Below are positions 7,961 to 25,455 of a DNA stretch of 35,254 nucleotides, in pieces. The stretch lies in contig SUPS01000009.1 in assembly GCA_005191415.1 (NCBI GenBank), forward strand, positions 1 through 35,254, given 5' to 3'. This DNA comes from Candidatus Helarchaeota ASGARD archaeon Hel_GB_A (GTDB lineage Archaea; Asgardarchaeota; Lokiarchaeia; Helarchaeales; HEL-GB-A). The notes beneath the pieces were generated by a model, which saw only the letters and a program-made list of their open reading frames with translations, was not told where the DNA came from and did no database searches. The position numbers were made by a program, and so were the translations under genes. Numbering within the stretch: the stretch's first letter is position 1; each line of letters begins with the position of its first letter.

Positions 7961-8932
7961 TTATAAACGAGTGATATTACGTGATTGCAGAATTTTTATT
8001 TTTCCTCTTTCTATAGCCCATTCAATATCTTGAGGCGCACCATGAAATATTTTTTCAATCCGAATGCCATATTGTACAAGCTCACGAATTTGTTCTGTTG
8101 TTAGACAAAGCTTCTGTCGCTTTTCAGGTGGCGTATCAACGAGAATAGTGCTATCTTTATTCGGATTCTTGACGCTCATCTTCGATTTTCTTCCAACTCG
8201 TGTTTTAATGACCTCTAAAGTCCGTTTATCTACAACGATAGAATCCGGCTCAACCTTTCCATCAGCAATACATTCGCCAAAGCCACAAGTGGCATTGATA
8301 AGTACTTGATTTCGGTCTTTGGTTAAGACATTAGCAGTAAACATAACCCCAGAAACTTCTGCATGTACTATTTTTTGAATAATAACACCCATCGAAATAA
8401 GATTCAAAGGCACCTTAATCATTTGTTGAACATACATTAATGCACGAGCAGAATAAAGGGAAGCCCAGCATTTTTTAATGCTTTCTAGTAAATCTGTAGT
8501 ATTTCTAATGCATAGAAAAGTATCAGCTTGACCTGCAAAAGATGTCTGGGAGAGATCTTCTACATTAGCCGATGAGCGCACCGCAACACCAAAATCGGTA
8601 GGGTCGGAGCTGTGTAGTTGACTGAATCGTTGAATAACGATTTCTTTAATATCAGGAGTAATTTCCGTTTGTAAAATATAATTTTGGAGTTTTTGGGAGG
8701 TAGAAATAATTTCAGTCAGGGGGATTTCTTTATCGAGAAGTGTCCGTATGTCCTTTGCGAAAGGACTACGATTTAGAAATCGATCAAAAGCAGAGGTAGA
8801 TAATACAAATCCTTCAGGAATAGGAATTTTTTTTCTAATTAATTCGCCAAGGTGAGCTGCTTTCCCACCTACAGCATGAATAGAATCTTTACCTAAATCG
8901 CCTAATTTGTAAATAACTTTAATTTTACTCAT
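7961..8932 (-). CDS. PEP synthase/PPDK-type N-terminal ATP-grasp (pyruvate/phosphate dikinase ATP-binding) domain protein, stand-alone
   Basis: GGKAAHLGELIRKKIPIPEGFVLST; VAVRSSANVEDLSQTSFAGQADTFL; VSGVMFTANVLTKDRNQVLINATCGFGECIADGKVEPDSI; IEWAIERGKIKILQSRNITRL; no His-domain or TIM barrel in the ORF. Confidence 0.85.
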   Translation of the reverse strand: MSKIKVIYKLGDLGKDSIHAVGGKAAHLGELIRKKIPIPEGFVLSTSAFDRFLNRSPFAKDIRTLLDKEIPLTEIISTSQKLQNYILQTEITPDIKEIVIQRFSQLHSSDPTDFGVAVRSSANVEDLSQTSFAGQADTFLCIRNTTDLLESIKKCWASLYSARALMYVQQMIKVPLNLISMGVIIQKIVHAEVSGVMFTANVLTKDRNQVLINATCGFGECIADGKVEPDSIVVDKRTLEVIKTRVGRKSKMSVKNPNKDSTILVDTPPEKRQKLCLTTEQIRELVQYGIRIEKIFHGAPQDIEWAIERGKIKILQSRNITRL

Positions 8933-9290
8933 TTACATAAATTTCTCCGTTCTCATCATCAATGCTAACGATTTTTCCTTTTTTCCCGTGTAGGCTTTCG
9001 TAATCTTCGATATTAAATCGCACGGACATCAGAGCAGGAATTTCAAATTCTCTAGATACGATCGCTAAATGAGAACCTTCGGAACCCGTTGTACAAATCA
9101 CGCCACTAATTTTAGAGAGGATAGGGCCTAATGTGGTTGTACCACAATCTTCCACAATTACAAGTTTATTATCAGCACCCTTTTCTAATAATTCTAGCAC
9201 ATCTTCAACCGATTTAATTACAACAAACTCGCCGGATGCCTCTTCTTTTGAAGAAACGGAGAGACCTTTTCCAACCTTCTGAGATGCCAT
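8925..9290 (-). CDS. PEP-utilising enzyme mobile (phosphohistidine) domain protein, stand-alone
   Basis: ISGVICTTGSEGSHLAIVSREFEIPALMSV is the swivelling His-domain motif with the His kept; overlaps the ATP-grasp ORF by 8 nt; ORF opens at 9299, ATG also at 9290. Confidence 0.8.
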   Translation of the reverse strand: MASQKVGKGLSVSSKEEASGEFVVIKSVEDVLELLEKGADNKLVIVEDCGTTTLGPILSKISGVICTTGSEGSHLAIVSREFEIPALMSVRFNIEDYESLHGKKGKIVSIDDENGEIYVNE

Positions 9291-9362
9291 AGCACACACC
9301 TATTAGTTATTATAAATCTTCTTTTATCTTTGAAAAGTTTATAGATAAATTAGTAATTTTGT

Positions 9363-11805: not shown

Positions 11806-12057
11806 ATTCTCATAAAGAAATTATTGTAAAGAAATTATGAAGAATTCTTTTCACGAATTATATTCTTTTAGGAGCACACCTATCAAAATCACCATACTTT
11901 AGAAAAGATCTATCGTCAAATTATTTGATAATCAAGGTCATTTTCGCTTCAAATACCTTTCTGAAAGATAGAGGCAAGAGGTTCTTTGGAAGATAGAGGA
12001 AATGAGTTTGAGCTGGTATTCAAAAAAAAATTTAAAGCTATTAAATGATTGATAATT

Positions 12058-12528
12058 ATGCAAACTATCAAAAAACATTTAGACATGAACTACGAGCAAA
12101 TAAAATTACGAGTTATAGCAAACTTATTACGGCTTCTCGTAGACATCTATGGAGATCCAAAAGCAAAGGAGAACCTAAGCAAGATTGAGGGGGAAGAAAT
12201 ATTATTTCGATTTCCCGCTTTAAATGGGGCTCTGGTTGTTAAGCCACATGCTGGGCGATTAATTGCAATGGTCGGCGAGTCTGAATCACCTATTGCAACA
12301 ATTAATTTTAAAGTAGAGGATACTAAGATATATGATACCATTGAAGATATAATAAAGAGTTCAGGATATTGGGGAATGCTAAAATTTATATTCAAATATG
12401 TTTTAAGGCGTAAGGTTGGGGTTGGGGGATCTATTAGGGCGCTTATTAAGATTTTTAAGGTATTGGGAATAGGAAATCATGAAATGTATAAAAGGGCAAA
12501 AGAAAAAATGAATTCTGGATGGAATTAA
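12058..12528 (+). CDS. SCP2 sterol/lipid-binding domain-like protein
   Basis: ILFRFPALNGALVVKPHAGRLIAMVGESESPIATINFKVEDTKIYDTIEDII resembles SCP2-like domains; ORF opens at 12049, ATG at 12058. Confidence 0.5.
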   Translation: MQTIKKHLDMNYEQIKLRVIANLLRLLVDIYGDPKAKENLSKIEGEEILFRFPALNGALVVKPHAGRLIAMVGESESPIATINFKVEDTKIYDTIEDIIKSSGYWGMLKFIFKYVLRRKVGVGGSIRALIKIFKVLGIGNHEMYKRAKEKMNSGWN

Positions 12529-12529
12529 G

Positions 12530-12883
12530 ATGGAAAAATATGAGGGACCCACTGATATTTTTGGAATTGCAATTTATAGTGCCCTTACTAGGAAGATGGA
12601 AGAAGATCCGGAGTATCGGGCATTTATTGAAAATTTAAACATGAATTTGATAGTAGAATTGGATTACTATCCTTTAATGATTAAATTTGAAAAGGATAAA
12701 TTTACAATTACGCGCGACATTGAAGACCCTACCGTCATAGTCAAAATTAATACACAGGATTTCTTAGACATCGTAGACGGAAAATCGTCTATTATCCGCA
12801 AGTTTTTAGGTCGTAAAATGAAGTTTAAGAAGGGAATTACTAAACTATTTAAGGTCTATAAGATTTTTTCAAAAATGATGTAA
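12530..12883 (+). CDS. SCP2-like lipid-binding domain protein
   Basis: YYPLMIKFEKDKFTITRDIEDPTVIVKINTQDFLDIVDGKSSIIRKFLGRKMKFKKGITKLFKVYKIF; typical SCP2 C-terminal pattern. Confidence 0.6.
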   Translation: MEKYEGPTDIFGIAIYSALTRKMEEDPEYRAFIENLNMNLIVELDYYPLMIKFEKDKFTITRDIEDPTVIVKINTQDFLDIVDGKSSIIRKFLGRKMKFKKGITKLFKVYKIFSKMM

Positions 12884-12896
12884 TTAAGGTGATAAT

Positions 12897-14348
12897 ATGC
12901 TACAACAAGCAGAAACTCATGAAGAAATTTTAAATAAATTGAGAAAAATAGTTGGTAACGAATGGGTTTCAGATTTTCCTGAAGAATTATTACTTTATTC
13001 ATATGATATGACAGAGCATCCTCCTAGCAACCCAGATTTTATAGTCATGCCAAAGTCGGTAGAAGAAATAATAGAAGTCGTTAAATTAGCAAATGAATAC
13101 AAAATTCCAATAGTTCCATTCGTCACGGGAAATAACATTGGAGGATTGACGATTCCCCTTAAAGGTGGAATTGTTCTCGACTTAAAGCGAATGGATAGAA
13201 TTCTTCATTTAAATGAAGACGATATGTATATCATTATAGAACCTGGAGTCACATTCGGGCATCTGAAAAAATTTCTGAAAGACACTAATTTCCGTTATAA
13301 TTATCCTAATGCGCCACCTTTTGCGTCAGTGATGGCTAATGCATTGCTTAGCGGATTGAATAACTTGAGTTTAAGATATGGCTGTATGTCAGAAGTAATA
13401 AATGGGATTGAAGTTGTGCTTCCGACAGGGGAACTCGTTAAAATTGGGACATGTATGTGCTGGGATAAACATTGGTGGGGACGGGGACCACAACCCGATC
13501 TTCTCGGATTATTTATCAACTGGCAAGGAATGACCGGGATTGTTACGAAAATGGCACTCCAGGTGTGGCCTAAGAAACCATTTCGGGATTGGAAATTTAT
13601 TTTATCGAATGATCTGGCAAAAACTTATGAAATAGTAAGAAAATTAGCCAGGTCAGATATAATGAATGATATACTCTTAATGTCTGTGGAAACTATAAAG
13701 ATGGTCCTTGGAATACCATATGGACAGGCAGTACATTTGGAAGGTGAGCCCCATTGGGCAACTACTTTAGATTTCTCTGCTAATACCAAGAAAGAGTATG
13801 AGGCAAAATGGGAATTTATTAAAGATACATTTAAAGAATTAAAAGAAGTAGATCCGAAAGCAGTACTAAGTTCAGTTCAGGGCGCTGCAAAGATGTATGG
13901 ACAGAAATTCGCAGAATTCACAAACTTACCATTTACTATAGGGAGTATGTTGGAATATGGAGGATGCACATGGGTCGGGACTTATATGACTACCAACATC
14001 GATACGATTGTAAAAGGAGTTAAGATAGCCTTTGATATCATCGAAAAACATGGATTCGAGAAATGTTTATACACACGAATGATGAAAGGAGGTCATTATT
14101 TCGCGTTTCGATTTTTATTACGGTTTTCAAAGGAGGAGGAGGAAGAAGTTGAACGAATGCGGAAGCTCAACAAGGAACTGTTTGAGAATCTGTACGAATT
14201 AGGGGCTTTTCCTTATAAGACCCCCGCATGGGCAGCAGAGGAAATAATCAAAAGATGCGACCCGAATTGGGTAAATCTGATGCATAAAATCAAGAAAACA
14301 TTGGATCCAAATGGGATTTTCAACCCTGGGAGATGGGGCGTAGAATGA
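12897..14348 (+). CDS. FAD-linked oxidase (GlcD/VAO-type FAD_binding_4 family)
   Basis: FIVMPKSVEEIIEVVKLANEYKIPIVPFVTGNNIGGLTIPLKGGIVLDLKRMDRIL; GLFINWQGMTGIVTKMALQVWPKKP; C-terminal LDPNGIFNPGRWG; SD-like aaggtgat upstream. Confidence 0.88.
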   Translation: MLQQAETHEEILNKLRKIVGNEWVSDFPEELLLYSYDMTEHPPSNPDFIVMPKSVEEIIEVVKLANEYKIPIVPFVTGNNIGGLTIPLKGGIVLDLKRMDRILHLNEDDMYIIIEPGVTFGHLKKFLKDTNFRYNYPNAPPFASVMANALLSGLNNLSLRYGCMSEVINGIEVVLPTGELVKIGTCMCWDKHWWGRGPQPDLLGLFINWQGMTGIVTKMALQVWPKKPFRDWKFILSNDLAKTYEIVRKLARSDIMNDILLMSVETIKMVLGIPYGQAVHLEGEPHWATTLDFSANTKKEYEAKWEFIKDTFKELKEVDPKAVLSSVQGAAKMYGQKFAEFTNLPFTIGSMLEYGGCTWVGTYMTTNIDTIVKGVKIAFDIIEKHGFEKCLYTRMMKGGHYFAFRFLLRFSKEEEEEVERMRKLNKELFENLYELGAFPYKTPAWAAEEIIKRCDPNWVNLMHKIKKTLDPNGIFNPGRWGVE

Positions 14349-15514
14349 GCGACGCATTAACCAAATACAAAGAAGAGCTTTATTGTTGTACCCGCTGTGG
14401 AACCTGTAAATACATATATCATGAATATAGCGACTCATGTCCAGCTGGTAAGAAATTTCGATTCGAGACTTTTTATCCCTCTGGGCGAATTCATATAGCT
14501 AGAGGGTTGCTTGAAGGAAAATTAGAGTGGAGTGAGCGAATTAGGGATATTCTATTTGCATGTCCCACTTGTGGAAATTGCACGATTCAATGCCAATCAA
14601 GACATCATAATTTAATCGTTGATATCATCGAAGCCTTGAGAGCGGATGCAGTTAGCAAAGGAATTGGACCCCTCCCGAATCAAAAAGCCTTTGCCGAATC
14701 CATTGCGAATGAACATAATCCTTACAAAGAATTGCATGCAGATAGGTTAAAATGGATGGAGAGAATTGAAGAAGAAGTCCCGCAGAAAGAAAAGGCAGAA
14801 ATATTCTATTTTGTTGGATGCACTTCTTCTTATAGGCAGAAAGACCTAGCACAGGCTACCATTAAGATTCTTAATAAGTTAGGGGTCGATTATACCGTCT
14901 CAAAAGACGAATGGTGTTGTGGTTCGCCCTTAATGCGAACAGGGCAGCTGGAATTAGTAAATGATTTAGTTAAACACAATTTAGAATTGATAGAAAAAGT
15001 GGGCGCAAAGAAAGTTATTACGTCGTGCGCAGGTTGCTATCGTACCTTGAAAACAGACTTTCCTAAGTATGCCGAAATGTTGGAAGGTGTCGAAATCCTT
15101 CATATTACGGAGTTCCTTCAACAAATGATAAAAACAGGAAAGCTCCGACTCCCCAAAAAATTTAATGCTCTTAAGGTGACGTATCATGACCCCTGCCATT
15201 TAGGGCGCCATTCTGATGTTTATGATGCACCCCGAACAGTGATTCAAGCAATACCAGGAGTGACCCTGATTGAAATGCCAAGGATTAGAGAGAATGCCTG
15301 GTGTTGTGGAGCTGGAGGGGGAGTCAAATCCGGTTTTCGGGATTGGGCTGTAGAAATTTCCTCTGAGCGAATACGCGAAGCTGAAGAAACAGAATGTGAA
15401 ATTTTACTAAGCGCTTGCCCTTTCTGTAAAACAAATCTTCAAGATGCCATTCAAGCCACAAATTCAAACCTAAAAATGAAAGATATAGTTAATCTTCTAA
15501 GTGAATTACTATAA
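14345..15514 (+). CDS. Fe-S oxidoreductase, HdrD/GlpC-like (2x[4Fe-4S] plus two CCG domains)
   Basis: CTRCGTCKY..CPAG, CPTCGNCTIQC, CCG motifs (WCCGSPLMRTGQ...SCAGCYRTLKTDFP; HDPCHLGRH...WCCGAGGG...ACPFCKTNL); ATGA overlap with upstream stop supports start 14345 over 14333. Confidence 0.88.
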   Translation: MSDALTKYKEELYCCTRCGTCKYIYHEYSDSCPAGKKFRFETFYPSGRIHIARGLLEGKLEWSERIRDILFACPTCGNCTIQCQSRHHNLIVDIIEALRADAVSKGIGPLPNQKAFAESIANEHNPYKELHADRLKWMERIEEEVPQKEKAEIFYFVGCTSSYRQKDLAQATIKILNKLGVDYTVSKDEWCCGSPLMRTGQLELVNDLVKHNLELIEKVGAKKVITSCAGCYRTLKTDFPKYAEMLEGVEILHITEFLQQMIKTGKLRLPKKFNALKVTYHDPCHLGRHSDVYDAPRTVIQAIPGVTLIEMPRIRENAWCCGAGGGVKSGFRDWAVEISSERIREAEETECEILLSACPFCKTNLQDAIQATNSNLKMKDIVNLLSELL

Positions 15515-15557: not shown

Positions 15558-16697
15558 TTGGCGTTAGATAAATTAGAATTTGTTCAGACGGCAAATATAC
15601 TAAAAAATACATATATAGACCAATGGAAAAAAGAAGGTAAGAAGGTACTTGGCTATTACTGTTCATATGCACCCGAGGAATTATTACATGCATTGGATAT
15701 ACTGCCATTTCGAATTCGAGGCACTACTTGTAAAGATACGGTACTCGCTGATGCCATTCTTTCTCGATTTAATTGCAGTTTCGTGAAGGCAACCCTAAAT
15801 CTAGCATTGGAGGGTAATTATAACTTTTTAGATGGATTAATCAGTGCCAATAGTTGTGATCATACGCGACGTATGATTGATGTTTGGAAAAGAAAAGAAG
15901 TTATTGCCAAAGATTTTCCACATTTCTTTTTATCAATCCCTCACGTCATTACAGAAGCAGGTCTAGAATGGTTAAAAACGGAAATAAACGCTTTTAAAGA
16001 ATCTTTAGAGAAGGTCTATAATAGACAGTTGGATGAAGAAAAGGTAAAAGAATCTATTAAAGTTTATAATGAAAACAGAAAATTATTGAAAGAGATTTAT
16101 TCATTTAGAATTGCAAATGACCCAAAAATAAAAAGTTCTGATTTTGCGCGTTTGCTGATCGCAAACACATCGGTGCCAAAGGAGATATGTAATGAAGAAT
16201 TAAGGAAAATAGTGGATATTCTGAAGGAACGAGATGGAATAAAGGATTATCGTGCTAGACTTATGCTAGTTGGGAGTTATGTAGATAATCCTGCCTTTTT
16301 TAAAATTTTCGAAGACGTAGGAGGATTAATTGTCACTGATAGTCTCTGTTACGGAGTAAGATACTTCTGGGATCAAATTGAACCGTCTTCCAATCCTTTA
16401 TTAGATATTGCAACGCGTTATTACCACAAGGTGTCTTGTCCAAGAATGATGGATCAACATCCTGCACGATTAGACTTTGTGAAAGACCAAATAAAGCGCG
16501 CGAAGGTTGATGGGGTAGTTTTACAGCGCATAGAATTCTGCGATTTGCATGGCTCGGATAACATGCTCTTTAGTCATGAATTAGAAGAGATGGATATTCC
16601 TATTTTAAACATTGATAGGGAATATTTGATGAGTGATGTGGCTCGTTTTAAAACACGCGTTGAAGCCTTTATAGAGCAGATTATGGTGAGTGGATAA
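15558..16697 (+). CDS. 2-hydroxyacyl-CoA dehydratase/benzoyl-CoA reductase subunit, BcrC/HgdB-like
   Basis: 379 aa; VLGYYCSYAPEELLHALDILPFRIRG; SCDHTRRMIDVW; VVLQRIEFCDLHGSDNMLFSHELEEMDIPILNIDREY; TTG start. Confidence 0.85.
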   Translation: MALDKLEFVQTANILKNTYIDQWKKEGKKVLGYYCSYAPEELLHALDILPFRIRGTTCKDTVLADAILSRFNCSFVKATLNLALEGNYNFLDGLISANSCDHTRRMIDVWKRKEVIAKDFPHFFLSIPHVITEAGLEWLKTEINAFKESLEKVYNRQLDEEKVKESIKVYNENRKLLKEIYSFRIANDPKIKSSDFARLLIANTSVPKEICNEELRKIVDILKERDGIKDYRARLMLVGSYVDNPAFFKIFEDVGGLIVTDSLCYGVRYFWDQIEPSSNPLLDIATRYYHKVSCPRMMDQHPARLDFVKDQIKRAKVDGVVLQRIEFCDLHGSDNMLFSHELEEMDIPILNIDREYLMSDVARFKTRVEAFIEQIMVSG

Positions 16698-17966
16698 GTG
16701 GTAAATCGATTAAAACCTTATGAAATATTATACGAATCCTTAAAATTAACCTTGGACTTAACGGAGAGAATCGTGACTGAAGATGAACAGGTAGCTTTGA
16801 GAAGTTTCATGCGGAATGGGGTTAAAGTTTTAGAGCGAGCACTTCGAGATGCAGATGAAGGCAAACCTATTATTGGATACCATTTTGCAATGCCTGGCGA
16901 AATCGTTCAATGCTTTGATGCAATACCTCTCTGTTTTGAAGCAGTACCCTATTTGATGGCAGCACTCTTCCCTGATGGGGCAGAGTATTATTATGATAAA
17001 ATTCATTCATTCGGCTCGCCTTATCATTCCTGTACATCTCAGAAAGGCATCATGGGAATGTACTTAGATCAAATCGCGGATTTTGACCTCGTAGTCTGCC
17101 CCACCGCTCCCTGTGATAATACGATCGCGAGTTATCAATTCTTTTCTAATCATGCTAAGAAACCCTTACTTGTTGCGGATATGCCTTATTATCGTACAAA
17201 AGAGGCGTATCAATATTTTGCAGATGAAATTGCGCGACAAATTAATGAAATTAGTAAATTAATTAACCAGGAACCAAATTGGGATAAATTCAAGACTGCA
17301 GTCCAAAATAGTAGTAAAGCCCAAGAGTATTTGATTGAAATCAATGAGATGCGGAGAAATATTCCGTGTCCTATCGAAAGCATTGTAAATCCACTAATTA
17401 CGGGAGCAACGGTCATCATGGCGGGGACTCCTGAAAAGACCCAATTCTTTAAAGATGTTCGTGATTTGATGCGAAAACGCATAAAGAATGGTGAGGGGCG
17501 ATTAGGAGAAGAACGATTCCGTTCTATTTGGCCAAATATCTCAATTTTTTTCGATATTGGTCTATATGAATGGCTAGATCGAGTGGTAGGATTAAGTTAT
17601 CTCGTTGATGTATTCACTTACTATTACTATGAACCTATTTATAGTAACAATATTGATGAAATACTTCTTGGAATCGCAAAACAATGTATGAACTACCCTA
17701 TGACACATCAGGCGCAATCCTTCATAGAGATAATGATAGAAGATACGCTGTGGGCGGCAAAAGAATTCAAAGCAGATTGTGCAATAATGACAGGGCATCT
17801 GGGCTGCAAGCAAATCGCCTCTGCAATTCAATTAATTCGGGAAACTTTGCGAGATGAGTTAGATATCCCTATGTTGACTCTTGAAGTAGATATCGGAGAT
17901 AAGCGATTCACGTCAATAGAGACCATAAAGTATGAAATAGAAGAATTTGCCAAGACCTTATTATAA
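16698..17966 (+). CDS. Benzoyl-CoA reductase/2-hydroxyacyl-CoA dehydratase family subunit, BcrB/HgdA-like, copy 1
   Basis: 422 aa; GKPIIGYHFAMPGEIVQCFDAIPLCFEAVPYL; SPYHSCTSQKGIMGM; CPTAPCDNTIASYQFF; DCAIMTGHLGCKQIASAIQLIRETLRDELDIPML; GTG start directly abutting the previous stop. Confidence 0.85.
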   Translation: MVNRLKPYEILYESLKLTLDLTERIVTEDEQVALRSFMRNGVKVLERALRDADEGKPIIGYHFAMPGEIVQCFDAIPLCFEAVPYLMAALFPDGAEYYYDKIHSFGSPYHSCTSQKGIMGMYLDQIADFDLVVCPTAPCDNTIASYQFFSNHAKKPLLVADMPYYRTKEAYQYFADEIARQINEISKLINQEPNWDKFKTAVQNSSKAQEYLIEINEMRRNIPCPIESIVNPLITGATVIMAGTPEKTQFFKDVRDLMRKRIKNGEGRLGEERFRSIWPNISIFFDIGLYEWLDRVVGLSYLVDVFTYYYYEPIYSNNIDEILLGIAKQCMNYPMTHQAQSFIEIMIEDTLWAAKEFKADCAIMTGHLGCKQIASAIQLIRETLRDELDIPMLTLEVDIGDKRFTSIETIKYEIEEFAKTLL

Positions 17967-17986
17967 GATGGATTGAGGCAAACTCA

Positions 17987-19261
17987 TTGAGTCAGCGAAT
18001 AAGACCATATCAAATATTATATGATATGTTAAGGCTAACCTTAGAGCTTGTTGAGCGAATTGTAACCGAAGATGAACAGATAGCCTTAAAAAGTTTCTTA
18101 AGAAATGCCCTTAAAGTTTTTAAGCGAACATTGCACTCCGCAGATCAGGGGAAGCCAGTTGTAGGATTTCATTTCGCCTTTCCTGTTGAAATATTATATG
18201 CATTCGATGTCGTTCCTTTTTGTATTGAGGCAATTCCCTATTTAATGGCATCTCTAACCCCAGATGGCGCCGAATATTACTATGATCGAATAGTTGCTTT
18301 CGGATCACCTTATCATTCTTGTACTTCTCAAAAAGGCATTATGGGAATGCTTCTTGAGGGGCTCGTGGATTTCGATCTCATGGTCTGTCCTACCGCCCCC
18401 TGCGATAATACCATTGCTAGTTACCAATTCTTCTCAAATTATATGAAAATTCCCTTACTTATTTCTGACATGCCACATTATAAGACAGAAAGGGGATACC
18501 AATATTACGCTGACCAACTATCTCACCAAATGAATGAAATTGGAGAATACTTGAAGCAGGAACCTGATCTTGAAAGGTTCAAAGCCGCCATTGCCAGAAA
18601 TAATCAAGCACACGAATACTTAATGGAAATTAATGACATGCGACGGCGAATCCCTAGCCCTATCGAGAGTATTGTGGGACCTTTAATCACTGCGACTACG
18701 ATTCTCCTTCCTTGTACAGAAGAAAAAATCCAGATTTTTAAAGATATCCGAGATTTAATGGCGAAACGCATAAAAAAGGGAGAAAGTCGAATCGGATCTG
18801 AACAGTTCCGATCGATATGGCCAAATATTACGTTTTTCTTTGACATAGGATTTTATGAATGGCTTGATCGCGAACTTAAGATGAGCCTTCTGATGGATTG
18901 CACAAACCACTATTATTACAATCCTATTAATTTGAATCAAACCGATTTTGAAGGGATAATCCAAGAACTGGCGCAACAGGTAATGAATTATCCGATGACA
19001 CGACAATCTCAGCATTTCTTAGAAACAATTATTAATGATTCGCTTTGGGCAGCGAAAACATATCAAGCTGATTGTGCTATTTTTACGGCACATTTAGGAT
19101 GCAAGCAAGTTGCCTCCGCCGTCCAACTGGTCCGAGAAGCATTACGCGATGAACTCGGCATTCCCATGCTCACAATTGAATGCGATATCGGCGATAAACG
19201 ATTTGCATCCATCGAGACAATTAAATATGAACTATCAGAATTTGTGAAAACGTTGTTGTAG
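17987..19261 (+). CDS. Benzoyl-CoA reductase/2-hydroxyacyl-CoA dehydratase family subunit, BcrB/HgdA-like, copy 2 (tandem paralogue)
   Basis: 424 aa; aligns by eye end to end with the preceding ORF (SPYHSCTSQKGIMGM, CPTAPCDNTIASYQFFSN, HLGCKQVASAVQLVREALRDELGIPML); TTG start. Confidence 0.85.
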   Translation: MSQRIRPYQILYDMLRLTLELVERIVTEDEQIALKSFLRNALKVFKRTLHSADQGKPVVGFHFAFPVEILYAFDVVPFCIEAIPYLMASLTPDGAEYYYDRIVAFGSPYHSCTSQKGIMGMLLEGLVDFDLMVCPTAPCDNTIASYQFFSNYMKIPLLISDMPHYKTERGYQYYADQLSHQMNEIGEYLKQEPDLERFKAAIARNNQAHEYLMEINDMRRRIPSPIESIVGPLITATTILLPCTEEKIQIFKDIRDLMAKRIKKGESRIGSEQFRSIWPNITFFFDIGFYEWLDRELKMSLLMDCTNHYYYNPINLNQTDFEGIIQELAQQVMNYPMTRQSQHFLETIINDSLWAAKTYQADCAIFTAHLGCKQVASAVQLVREALRDELGIPMLTIECDIGDKRFASIETIKYELSEFVKTLL

Positions 19262-19282
19262 ATATTTAAAGATTTATAGGAT

Positions 19283-19663
19283 ATGGAACGTGATATCATA
19301 GATTGTATAAAATACAATTGTGGTAAATGTTGTGAGAGGGAATGGGACGTATATGTTTCAGAAAAGGATATTAAGATGTGGGAAAAGAGCCGCCCAGACA
19401 TATTAAAAGAGGTTGTTACCAAAAAAGTAGGGAATAGAACAAAAAAATTGCTTAAAAAGAAACCTGTAAAATTTCCAGATGGTACAGAACGAAAAATTTG
19501 TATATTTTACGATTTTGAAAAGAAATGCCTGATTCATGAATTTAAACCAGAAGTATGTAAGAAATTTACGTGTTTAAAGCATCCACTTTTTATATTTCAA
19601 TTGTTTAAGCAAATTTCAGAATTAATAGAAGATTTAAATCTAAATACGAAGAAATATATCTAA
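19283..19663 (+). CDS. YkgJ-family (CxxCC-type zinc/iron-chelating domain) protein
   Basis: CIKYNCGKCCEREWDVYVSEKDIKMWEK...CIFYDFEKKCLIHEFKPEVCKKFTC. Confidence 0.75.
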   Translation: MERDIIDCIKYNCGKCCEREWDVYVSEKDIKMWEKSRPDILKEVVTKKVGNRTKKLLKKKPVKFPDGTERKICIFYDFEKKCLIHEFKPEVCKKFTCLKHPLFIFQLFKQISELIEDLNLNTKKYI

Positions 19664-19798
19664 AATGAAACTTAAAATAACCATAAAACGTATAGAAGTT
19701 CAGCCCATTCATTTATTTTAGGAATCTCGAAAATTGAATCATTATATGATGCGTTGTTACTACGAAAAATTAAAATTATGACTTTTAATGGTTGGCTT

Positions 19799-20581
19799 AT
19801 GTATTACGGTGGAGTCGACATCGGTAGTGCCTATTGCAAATGTATTATCATAGATGAGGAAGGAATAGTAGCGAAGGCGCTCTATCCGGTGGAAGGAAAT
19901 CCACAGGTTATATCTCAAAAGGTGGTAAAGGATGCGTTAGCACCGCAGAAACTAAAGGTAAAGCATGTGAAAAAGTTTGTAACAACGGGGAGGAATCGAA
20001 AGAAATTTCCTTTAAAGAATGAGGAAATGACAGAAGTAACATGTATTGCAAAGGGAACTTACAATTTATTACCATCTGTAAGAACGATAATAGATATTGG
20101 GGCAATTACAAATAAAGCAATTAAGATTAATGAGAAAGGTAAAGTTATGGAGTATGTTATCAATGATAAATGTGCATCAGGTTCAGGAATGTTCCTCGAA
20201 CTCGTAGCAAAGGCATTGGAAATGGAAGTCCAAGATTTAGGGCGGAATGCAGCACAATCAAGAAATCCACTCTCCATTACAAATCAGTGCACTATATTTG
20301 CAGAAAGTGAAGTTATATATCTGGTTAATGAGGGGAAAAGTGAGGTCGATATTGCAGCTGGAGTCTGTAATTCCATTGCGGGTAATTTATACTCCTTATT
20401 AAAACGCGTTCGAATGGAGAAAGATATAACATTAACGGGGGGTGTCGCAAATAATGGGCAAATCAGGCGGAATCTAGAAGAACGATTAAATTTTGAACTT
20501 AAAACATTCCCGTTCGACCCCTCCTATGTAGCAGCTTATGGGGCGGCGTTATTTGCGAAAGAAATGGAAAAAAAGGTGTAG
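19799..20581 (+). CDS. BadF/BadG/BcrA/BcrD-family ATPase activator, BcrD-like
   Basis: GGVDIGSAYCKCIIIDEEG; IIDIGAITNKAIKI (not GGQD); NDKCASGSGMFLE; QCTIFAESEV; ORF opens at 19754 (TTG) but homology begins at ATG 19799. Confidence 0.82.
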   Translation: MYYGGVDIGSAYCKCIIIDEEGIVAKALYPVEGNPQVISQKVVKDALAPQKLKVKHVKKFVTTGRNRKKFPLKNEEMTEVTCIAKGTYNLLPSVRTIIDIGAITNKAIKINEKGKVMEYVINDKCASGSGMFLELVAKALEMEVQDLGRNAAQSRNPLSITNQCTIFAESEVIYLVNEGKSEVDIAAGVCNSIAGNLYSLLKRVRMEKDITLTGGVANNGQIRRNLEERLNFELKTFPFDPSYVAAYGAALFAKEMEKKV

Positions 20582-21394
20582 ATGATGGGATTCTTTTTAG
20601 GAATAGATATCGGATCACTTACCGGGAAAGCCGTGATAATAGATGATGATGCAACGATAAAAGCCCAACAAATCATCTACGTGAAAAAACTTCCCATACA
20701 TACAGTGAATGCGTTAATGGAGGATGTTTTACCAAAAGTAGGGATTGAGGATATTTCAGAAGTAACATATTGTGTTGGAACTGGTTACGGTAGGCGGAAA
20801 ATACCTCTAGCAAACGAAACAATTAGTGAAATTACCTGCCATGGCACAGGAGCCCATCATGTATTGCCCTCTGTAAGAACTGTAATTGATATAGGGGGGC
20901 AGGATTGCAAAGTTATTAGGTTAGATGCAAAAGGGAATCTCAAAAATTTTATTATGAATGAGAAATGTGCCGCTGGCACAGGAAGATATCTGGAAATTAT
21001 GGCAAAGACATTAAATTTAACACTTGATGAACTGGGCACACTTTCGCTCAAAGCCAAAGCCCCTTTATCCTTAGCTAGTAAATGTAGCATTTATGCACGA
21101 CTTGAAGTGATGCAGCTCATCAGCGATGGACTTAAGAAACCAGAGATCGCCGCAGCAATTAATCGAGCTATGGCGGAACGTGTAATTAATCTTGCAGAAA
21201 AAGTGGGCATAGAGGAGGATGTCGCAGTCTCTGGGGGTGTAGCTAAAAATATTGGTGTAGTCACTAATATGGAACGAATAATCGGGATAAAATTCAAGAA
21301 ATTTCCCATCGATCCTCAAATTATTGGTGCTCTTGGTGCAGCACTCATTGCTAAAAGAGCCTATCAGAAATTATATAAAGAAGAAAAAAATTAA
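20582..21394 (+). CDS. BadF/BadG/BcrA/BcrD-family ATPase activator, BcrA/HgdC-like
   Basis: FLGIDIGSLTGKAVIID; VGTGYGRRKIPLANETISEITCHGTGAHHVLPSVRTVIDIGGQDCKVI; NEKCAAGTGRYLE; SKCSIYARLEV. Confidence 0.88.
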   Translation: MMGFFLGIDIGSLTGKAVIIDDDATIKAQQIIYVKKLPIHTVNALMEDVLPKVGIEDISEVTYCVGTGYGRRKIPLANETISEITCHGTGAHHVLPSVRTVIDIGGQDCKVIRLDAKGNLKNFIMNEKCAAGTGRYLEIMAKTLNLTLDELGTLSLKAKAPLSLASKCSIYARLEVMQLISDGLKKPEIAAAINRAMAERVINLAEKVGIEEDVAVSGGVAKNIGVVTNMERIIGIKFKKFPIDPQIIGALGAALIAKRAYQKLYKEEKN

Positions 21395-24657: not shown

Positions 24658-25455
24658 ATGCTCACAGCGGGTATAGATATTGGATCACTTACGACAAAAG
24701 CCCTCATTATAGATGAGGATAAAATAAAGGGTTATGTAATATTGAAATCGGGGCATTTATTTGAGGAGGCGGGGAACGAGGCATATAAGCTCTGTTTAGA
24801 GAAATGTAATTTAACTAACGACGATATTAAATATATTGTAGGAACAGGATACGGACGGGCGCTTATCTCATTTGCGAATGAAAATATCACAGAAATTACC
24901 TGTCATGCGCGTGGAGTATATTATTATTTTCCAGATGCGCATACGGTCATTGATATTGGAGGACAGGATAGCAAAGCGATCAGAATTGGCGAAAATGGAA
25001 AAGTGCTTGATTTTGTTATGAATGATAAATGTGCAGCGGGTACGGGCCGATTTTTAGAGGTCATGCAGAAAGCCTTGAACATTGAGACCTTAGATATGAT
25101 GGGAAAATTGTCTTTAAATTCAAGAAATCCTGCCAAAATCTCGAGTATGTGTACCGTTTTTGCAGAGAGTGAGGTTATTTCGCTATTTGCCCAGAAAAAG
25201 GCGAAGAAAGAAGATATTGTCGCAGGACTTCACACAGCCATCGCGAAACGAATCACAGGCATGGTTAATCGATTGGGACGAGTGCAAGAAAAAATTATAT
25301 TCTGCGGTGGCGTGGCAAAAAATGTAGGCGTAAAGAAAGCTCTTGAACAAGAATTAGGTAAACCCTTATATACACCAGAAGATCCACAGATTACAGGGGC
25401 ATTAGGGGCAGCGTTACTAGCGCAAGAACGATACCAGAAAAAGAAAAAAATATAG
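24658..25455 (+). CDS. BadF/BadG/HgdC-family ATPase activator (2-hydroxyacyl-CoA dehydratase activator type), third copy
   Basis: TAGIDIGSLTTKALIIDED; VIDIGGQDSKAIRI; NDKCAAGTGRFLEVMQKAL; SMCTVFAESEVISL; FCGGVAKNVGVKKALE. Confidence 0.88.
   Translation: MLTAGIDIGSLTTKALIIDEDKIKGYVILKSGHLFEEAGNEAYKLCLEKCNLTNDDIKYIVGTGYGRALISFANENITEITCHARGVYYYFPDAHTVIDIGGQDSKAIRIGENGKVLDFVMNDKCAAGTGRFLEVMQKALNIETLDMMGKLSLNSRNPAKISSMCTVFAESEVISLFAQKKAKKEDIVAGLHTAIAKRITGMVNRLGRVQEKIIFCGGVAKNVGVKKALEQELGKPLYTPEDPQITGALGAALLAQERYQKKKKI

Follow-up and report, generated by a model that had tools for sequence, protein, structure and literature searches.

The window analysed here, a stretch of 35,254 nt from the Asgard archaeon Candidatus Helarchaeota Hel_GB_A (SUPS01000009.1), makes up one whole contig of a genome bin that totals 3.84 Mb and is 83% complete. 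It carries an operon, C-B-B'-YkgJ-D-A, with one relay subunit (C), two tandem catalytic subunits (B and B') and two BadF-type ATPases (D and A). Sequence comparison suggests, with somewhat more confidence than doubt, that the product of this locus is a radical enzyme, activated by ATP and built with exchangeable catalytic halves, belonging to the superfamily of class I benzoyl-CoA reductases (BCR-I) and 2-hydroxyacyl-CoA dehydratases (HAD). Some of the lowest redox potentials in biology are attained in this superfamily, whose members have been treated as fixed pairs.

The C protein (15558-16697, + strand, 379 aa; Pfam HGD-D, E 3e-92) found its best PDB match in BzdN (E 5e-48). In the BzdNO crystal structure Cys36, 73, 100, 263, 293 and 327 of BzdN are the ligands of the [8Fe-9S] double cubane (PMC11971306), and all six positions are Cys in C, likewise in 50/50 close relatives; these cysteines had escaped the first-pass annotation of the locus. 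HadC keeps four of the six and MbdN three, and the two positions occupied by Pro and Ala in HadC are Cys in C. B (16698-17966, +, 422 aa; HGD-D, E 1e-46) and B' (17987-19261, +, 424 aa; HGD-D, E 7e-47) were compared with BzdO, in which Cys95, Cys128, Cys380, Glu65 and His131 are placed at the active-site aqua-[4Fe-4S] cluster (PMC11971306). The three cluster cysteines and the Glu65 equivalent are kept in 74/74 B sequences, B and B' included, and in B they were mapped to C112, C139, C370 and E81. The AlphaFold model of B (mean predicted local distance difference test, pLDDT, 91) has a template modelling (TM) score of ~0.80 to both HadB and BzdO, with the best E-value for HadB. As judged from these residues and folds, C is a double-cubane relay of the BzdN type, and B and B' are catalytic subunits of the HadB/BzdO type. 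The benzoyl site, read from the same alignment, is not conserved in either B copy: Trp46 is replaced by Gly, Tyr97 by Ser, His131 by Thr and Tyr298 by Phe in B and Thr in B'. The His131 position is Thr in 68/74 members of the B family, in which Trp46 and Tyr97 are replaced as well.

The two ATPases, both assigned to Pfam BcrAD_BadFG, are D (19754-20581, +, 275 aa, with an internal ATG at 19799 as likely a start as 19754) and its likely partner A (20582-21394, +, 270 aa), which are 36% identical. A has canonical GGQDCK and CAAGTGR motifs and MbdQ as its best PDB match (E 7e-59). In D the GGQD motif is degenerate and a CASG.GMFLE motif, also present in MbdP, is found. Both ATPases carry the pair of cysteines by which a single [4Fe-4S] cluster is bridged in the activator dimer. 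In the tree D and A fall into separate clades (100/99 each), joined at moderate support (80/90) within an Asgard/Desulfobacteraceae activase clade (99/97) that contains neither MbdP nor MbdQ. An origin of the D/A heterodimer independent of the benzoyl-CoA reductase one is therefore probable, although MbdP is a long branch. Besides this unequal pair the window carries a third BadF-type ATPase with canonical GGQDSK and CAAGTGR motifs (24658-25455, +), ~3 kb downstream of A, which scores 282 bits to acyl-CoA dehydratase activase and may be an alternative homodimeric activator.

Gene neighbourhoods were compared across 55 named C-B units, with denominators of 45-55 for single features. The order-level relatives of the window genome are the Helarchaeota bins Hel_GB_B and Meg19 Bin 504, and the class also holds Lokiarchaeota and Sigynarchaeota bins. 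The C-B unit is a conserved Lokiarchaeia/Helarchaeota family, in which duplication of B recurs: a B-B tandem was found in 14/50 loci, and at least 16 of the 53 genomes of the class have tandem B-B by a single C. A C-C tandem was found in 0/55 loci and C was never duplicated alone. Duplication is confined to the catalytic subunit, except in L097 and L151, where whole C-B units are repeated.

In the B tree, B and B' of the window are sisters (100/100), nested with single-copy Helarchaeota B sequences, and the pair arose by its own duplication. An older duplication gave rise to a different pair of B clades in Lokiarchaeia (99/98 and 97/93), whose members are mostly found in tandem after one C. 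A C-B-B-B arrangement in genome G003 belongs to a separate lineage, and L146 has a further B pair. On this phylogeny B has multiplied beside a single C on at least three separate occasions (the window pair, the Lokiarchaeia pair and G003). Some genomes have only the B1 type beside C (e.g. L126, L134, L138, L139, L141, L145, L147) and others only the B2 type (e.g. L108, L113, L114, L118, L120, L122, L125, L127), so each type can be the sole partner of C. The first-pass annotation had offered either a five-subunit enzyme or interchangeable B subunits; since each Lokiarchaeia B clade can serve C alone, the second option is favoured and the first disfavoured. Two single loci deserve mention. L086 (5634-13729, G003:C2, same order as the window) reads GlcD-CCG-C-B-B-B, with three tandem catalytic subunits behind one C. 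In Hel_GB_B the B gene by C (L040, 13381-14640, G001:C171) has one in-frame TAA, and an intact B lies ~6 kb upstream. The stop may reflect decay, sequencing error or recoding, and since one of the two copies carries it, B copies may be open to loss.

Full-length B and B' share 64% amino-acid identity, with the same Cys motifs in each, and 67% nucleotide identity. The nonsynonymous divergence (dN) is 0.25 and synonymous sites (dS) are saturated, which indicates purifying selection; together with the three cluster cysteines and the catalytic Glu present in both, this agrees with the earlier view that neither copy is decayed, and a reading of B' as a pseudogene was rejected. Because dS is saturated and the longest identical run is 12 nt, the copies are old and without recent gene conversion. 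Gene conversion as the source of the sister grouping was likewise rejected, as no high-identity patches were found and third-position identity was 0.30-0.55 in all blocks. A misassembly or chance tandem was discarded on the nucleotide identity, the shortness of identical runs and the recurrence of B-B in relatives.

The loops around Cys112 and Cys139 are identical between the copies (15/15 residues), and neither copy shows a significant excess of private changes (Tajima test, 36 versus 49, chi2 2.0). Of 108 conserved family columns, a scattered set of 8 is altered in B only and 5 are altered in B' only, three of the latter at 298-308 (hypergeometric p 0.0005, the region being chosen after the fact). 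F306, aligned with BzdO Tyr298, is Phe in B and in 72/72 relatives and Thr in B', and Y308 of B is His in B'; F306T and Y308H both lie at the presumed substrate clamp. In BzdO, Tyr298 provides a thioester hydrogen bond (PMC11971306). The simplest reading, from a remote alignment and a region picked afterwards, is that B and B' would carry out the same chemistry with different acyl pockets.

All six genes are intact and co-oriented (+ strand); from C to A the gaps between them measure 0, 20, 21, 90 and 0 nt. The first-pass annotation had located these open reading frames exactly and had rightly described them as tightly packed in one orientation, but its unit of 15558-21394 was truncated: four further genes at 12049-15514 belong to it, so that the SCP2-fold partner and the GlcD-CCG pair were missed. 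The full order is SCP2-fold, SCP2, GlcD-like flavoprotein, CCG iron-sulphur protein, C-B-B'-YkgJ-D-A.

The first of these genes (12049-12528, +, 159 aa) encodes a putative hydrophobic-ligand carrier. The protein itself gave no Pfam match, and weak SCP2 matches were obtained in 4/28 relatives. Its AlphaFold model (pLDDT 88.9) has an SCP2 fold, with the ubiquinone synthesis accessory protein UbiJ-SCP2 as best PDB match (6h6o, E 2.5e-7); the two share the fold but only 11% identity, and UbiJ acts in a different pathway. This gene is the most constant C-B neighbour in relatives, standing directly upstream of C in 44/53 loci with upstream sequence and adjoining C-B in 46/53. The modelled fold suggests a hydrophobic substrate. 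A lead to the substrate may also be offered by L151/L152 of Desulfobacteraceae SURF_67, bacterial relatives in which genes for an acyl-CoA ligase, an acyl-CoA dehydrogenase and a TRAP transporter accompany a C-B-C-B arrangement.

The next gene (12530-12883, +, 117 aa) encodes an SCP2-domain protein (Pfam SCP2, 24.1 bits, cut-off 21.3) and is also present in Helarchaeota loci L090 and L091 and in L131. It is followed by a GlcD-like FAD-linked oxidase/dehydrogenase (12897-14348, +; Pfam FAD_binding_4 and FAD-oxidase_C) and a CCG/Fer4 iron-sulphur protein, HdrD/TfrB-like (14333-15514, +; Pfam CCG and Fer4_8; 266 bits to the TfrB model, under its cut-off). The SCP2, GlcD-like and CCG genes lie within the operon in the window and in both Helarchaeota loci, where the GlcD-like counterparts are 68% and 65% identical. 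GlcD and CCG genes occur near C-B in 14/45 loci with enough flank. In the window's own genome (G000) there are further C-B paralogues, with GlcD and CCG on contig C36 and GlcD only on C97; both pairs are of the double-cubane type, and HAD-like subunits are also found on C131, C104 and C200. In the Lokiarchaeota locus L108 (12112-13710) a CdhC-like 260-aa protein and a CooC/MinD-like ATPase follow directly after GlcD-CCG behind C-B, and open reading frames of the same sizes occupy this place in several further loci of Lokiarchaeia. With these two identified, the idea of an Etf pair after CCG in Lokiarchaeia was rejected.

The YkgJ-type CxxCxxCC protein (19283-19663, +, 126 aa; Pfam PF03692, 34 bits) had no homologue in any related locus examined and is inserted in the window operon only, which led to its rejection as a conserved subunit. 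Elsewhere in the window (7961-9299, -) PPDK_N and phosphoenolpyruvate-utiliser domains are encoded by two separate small genes. The genome also contains two McrA-like genes (G000:C94 20216-20599 and G000:C8 16632-17009), consistent with alkyl-CoM metabolism of the Helarchaeota type.

The proposed mechanism is as follows. Electrons would be supplied by reduced ferredoxin or by the neighbouring GlcD-CCG flavo-iron-sulphur pair, and A/D would drive them, at the cost of ATP, into the double cubane of C. C could then hand them to the cluster of its bound partner, B or B', so that C-B and C-B' enzymes would share their chemistry and differ in the acyl pocket, and the SCP2-fold proteins would probably hand over or hold the hydrophobic acyl substrate. 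As to the reaction itself, the double cubane and the two-ATPase activator favour reduction, and the absence of His131 together with GlcD-CCG next door leaves room for reversible dehydration.

The first-pass annotation had called the complex benzoyl-CoA-reductase-like, and it could be a bona fide class I enzyme that gained a second BcrB. Like BzdNOPQ (class I, Aromatoleum, PDB 8s02), the window has the six [8Fe-9S] cysteines, the Cys95/128/380 and Glu65 equivalents and two different BadF activator subunits. Unlike it, the window lacks the benzoyl-pocket residues (Trp46, Tyr97, His131 and Tyr298 equivalents), has two B subunits with SCP2-fold and GlcD-CCG partners, and places C and A/D outside the BCR clades. 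In the C tree the window protein has Asgard and desulfobacterial neighbours and groups with none of BzdN, HadC, MbdN and DCCP (the deep branches there have weak support), and the B tree similarly sets B and B' apart from characterised clades. All NCBIfam equivalog cut-offs for Bcr/Bzd subunits were missed (e.g. C against bzdN, 180 of 454 bits), as was that of the DCCP model NF040772 (205 of 350 bits), and the equivalogs dch (dienoyl-CoA hydratase), had (6-hydroxy dehydrogenase) and oah (ring hydrolase), with the models TIGR03189, TIGR03201 and TIGR03200, gave no match over cut-off in the 83% complete genome. With the enzyme outside characterised clades and the benzoyl-CoA pathway genes not found, the name benzoyl-CoA reductase is unsupported; the natural substrate is probably not benzoyl-CoA, and a bona fide class I benzoyl-CoA reductase with an added BcrB is very improbable. 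Two further systems are among the closest known. MbdONPQ (3-methylbenzoyl-CoA reductase, PDB 9gai) has two unequal ATPases and, in MbdP, the CASG.GMFLE motif of D, but MbdN has three of the six cysteines and A/D do not group with MbdQ/MbdP. DCCP with DCCP-R (PDB 6eno / 7yyl) has the six-cysteine double-cubane site of C but is a homodimer from a single gene, each chain of which carries a double cubane, whereas C is paired with the three-Cys B/B'.

The most serious competitor, rated somewhat below an even chance, is an (R)-2-hydroxyacyl-CoA dehydratase with a retained double-cubane relay, in which GlcD-CCG would supply the pathway's 2-hydroxyacid dehydrogenase, and B and B' would serve different hydroxyacyl chains. 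It draws on the linkage of GlcD-like and CCG genes to C-B, seen in relatives and in the C36 and C97 paralogues, on the absence of BzdO His131 from B as from HadB (PMC11971306), and on HadB as the best fold match by E-value. HadBC-HadI ((R)-2-hydroxyisocaproyl-CoA dehydratase, PDB 3o3m) further resembles the window in the three-Cys cluster and in Glu55. It differs in that HadI is a homodimer and B is only 18% identical to its counterpart. Against a dehydratase stand the two double-cubane cysteines that C has and HadC lacks, the two-ATPase activator, a type known from reductases, and the absence of a CoA-transferase from the window genes scanned. An obligate five-subunit enzyme, with B and B' both needed in one C-B-B'-A-D assembly, would fit two conserved genes 20 nt apart in one operon. 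Besides the genomes with a sole B, it is opposed by L090, the nearest relative with a complete operon, which has C-B-D-A with a single B, and by the superfamily structures, in which a pair of HGD-D folds forms a (pseudo)dimer (PMC11971306); it is considered improbable. That B' is a plain dosage duplicate, functionally the same as B, is unlikely, if less so: the pair is recent enough to form sisters at 64% identity and shows no significant excess of private changes, but saturated synonymous sites are old for neutral dosage redundancy and the B'-specific changes fall at the presumed clamp.

Several points weigh against exchangeable halves with distinct pockets. B was mapped onto BzdO at a residue identity of 15-18%, and the argument from the 298-308 cluster is post hoc. 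The window pair is lineage-specific, with no ortholog of B' proper in which conservation of the pocket could be checked, and the Lokiarchaeia pairs keep Phe in both copies, so that specialisation, if any, would lie elsewhere. The activator is not fixed either, as D-A follows B in a minority of loci only and most Lokiarchaeia loci have no D-A nearby.

Asgard 'bcr' genes are on record, and aromatic degradation has been inferred from the benzoyl-CoA reductase label (PMC8163825), which one study doubted on account of missing downstream genes (PMC8072921). No description of SCP2 with BCR, of B duplications or double-cubane conservation in this family, or of a Helarchaeota 2-hydroxyglutaryl-CoA dehydratase was found in the open-access papers searched. 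The wider proposal, which is tentative and may well not hold, is of an Asgard-centred radical acyl-CoA system in which swappable catalytic subunits share a double-cubane relay, the heterodimeric activator evolved independently and an SCP2-fold carrier presents a hydrophobic, lipid-like substrate; it would act as an ATP-driven reductase or dehydratase on large acyl chains. If a single double-cubane relay does serve several catalytic subunits, the design would be modular, comparable to two-component systems with one reductase for many active sites. Relay and active-site roles could then be tested separately, and the label 'benzoyl-CoA reductase' often given to Asgard genomes would be corrected.

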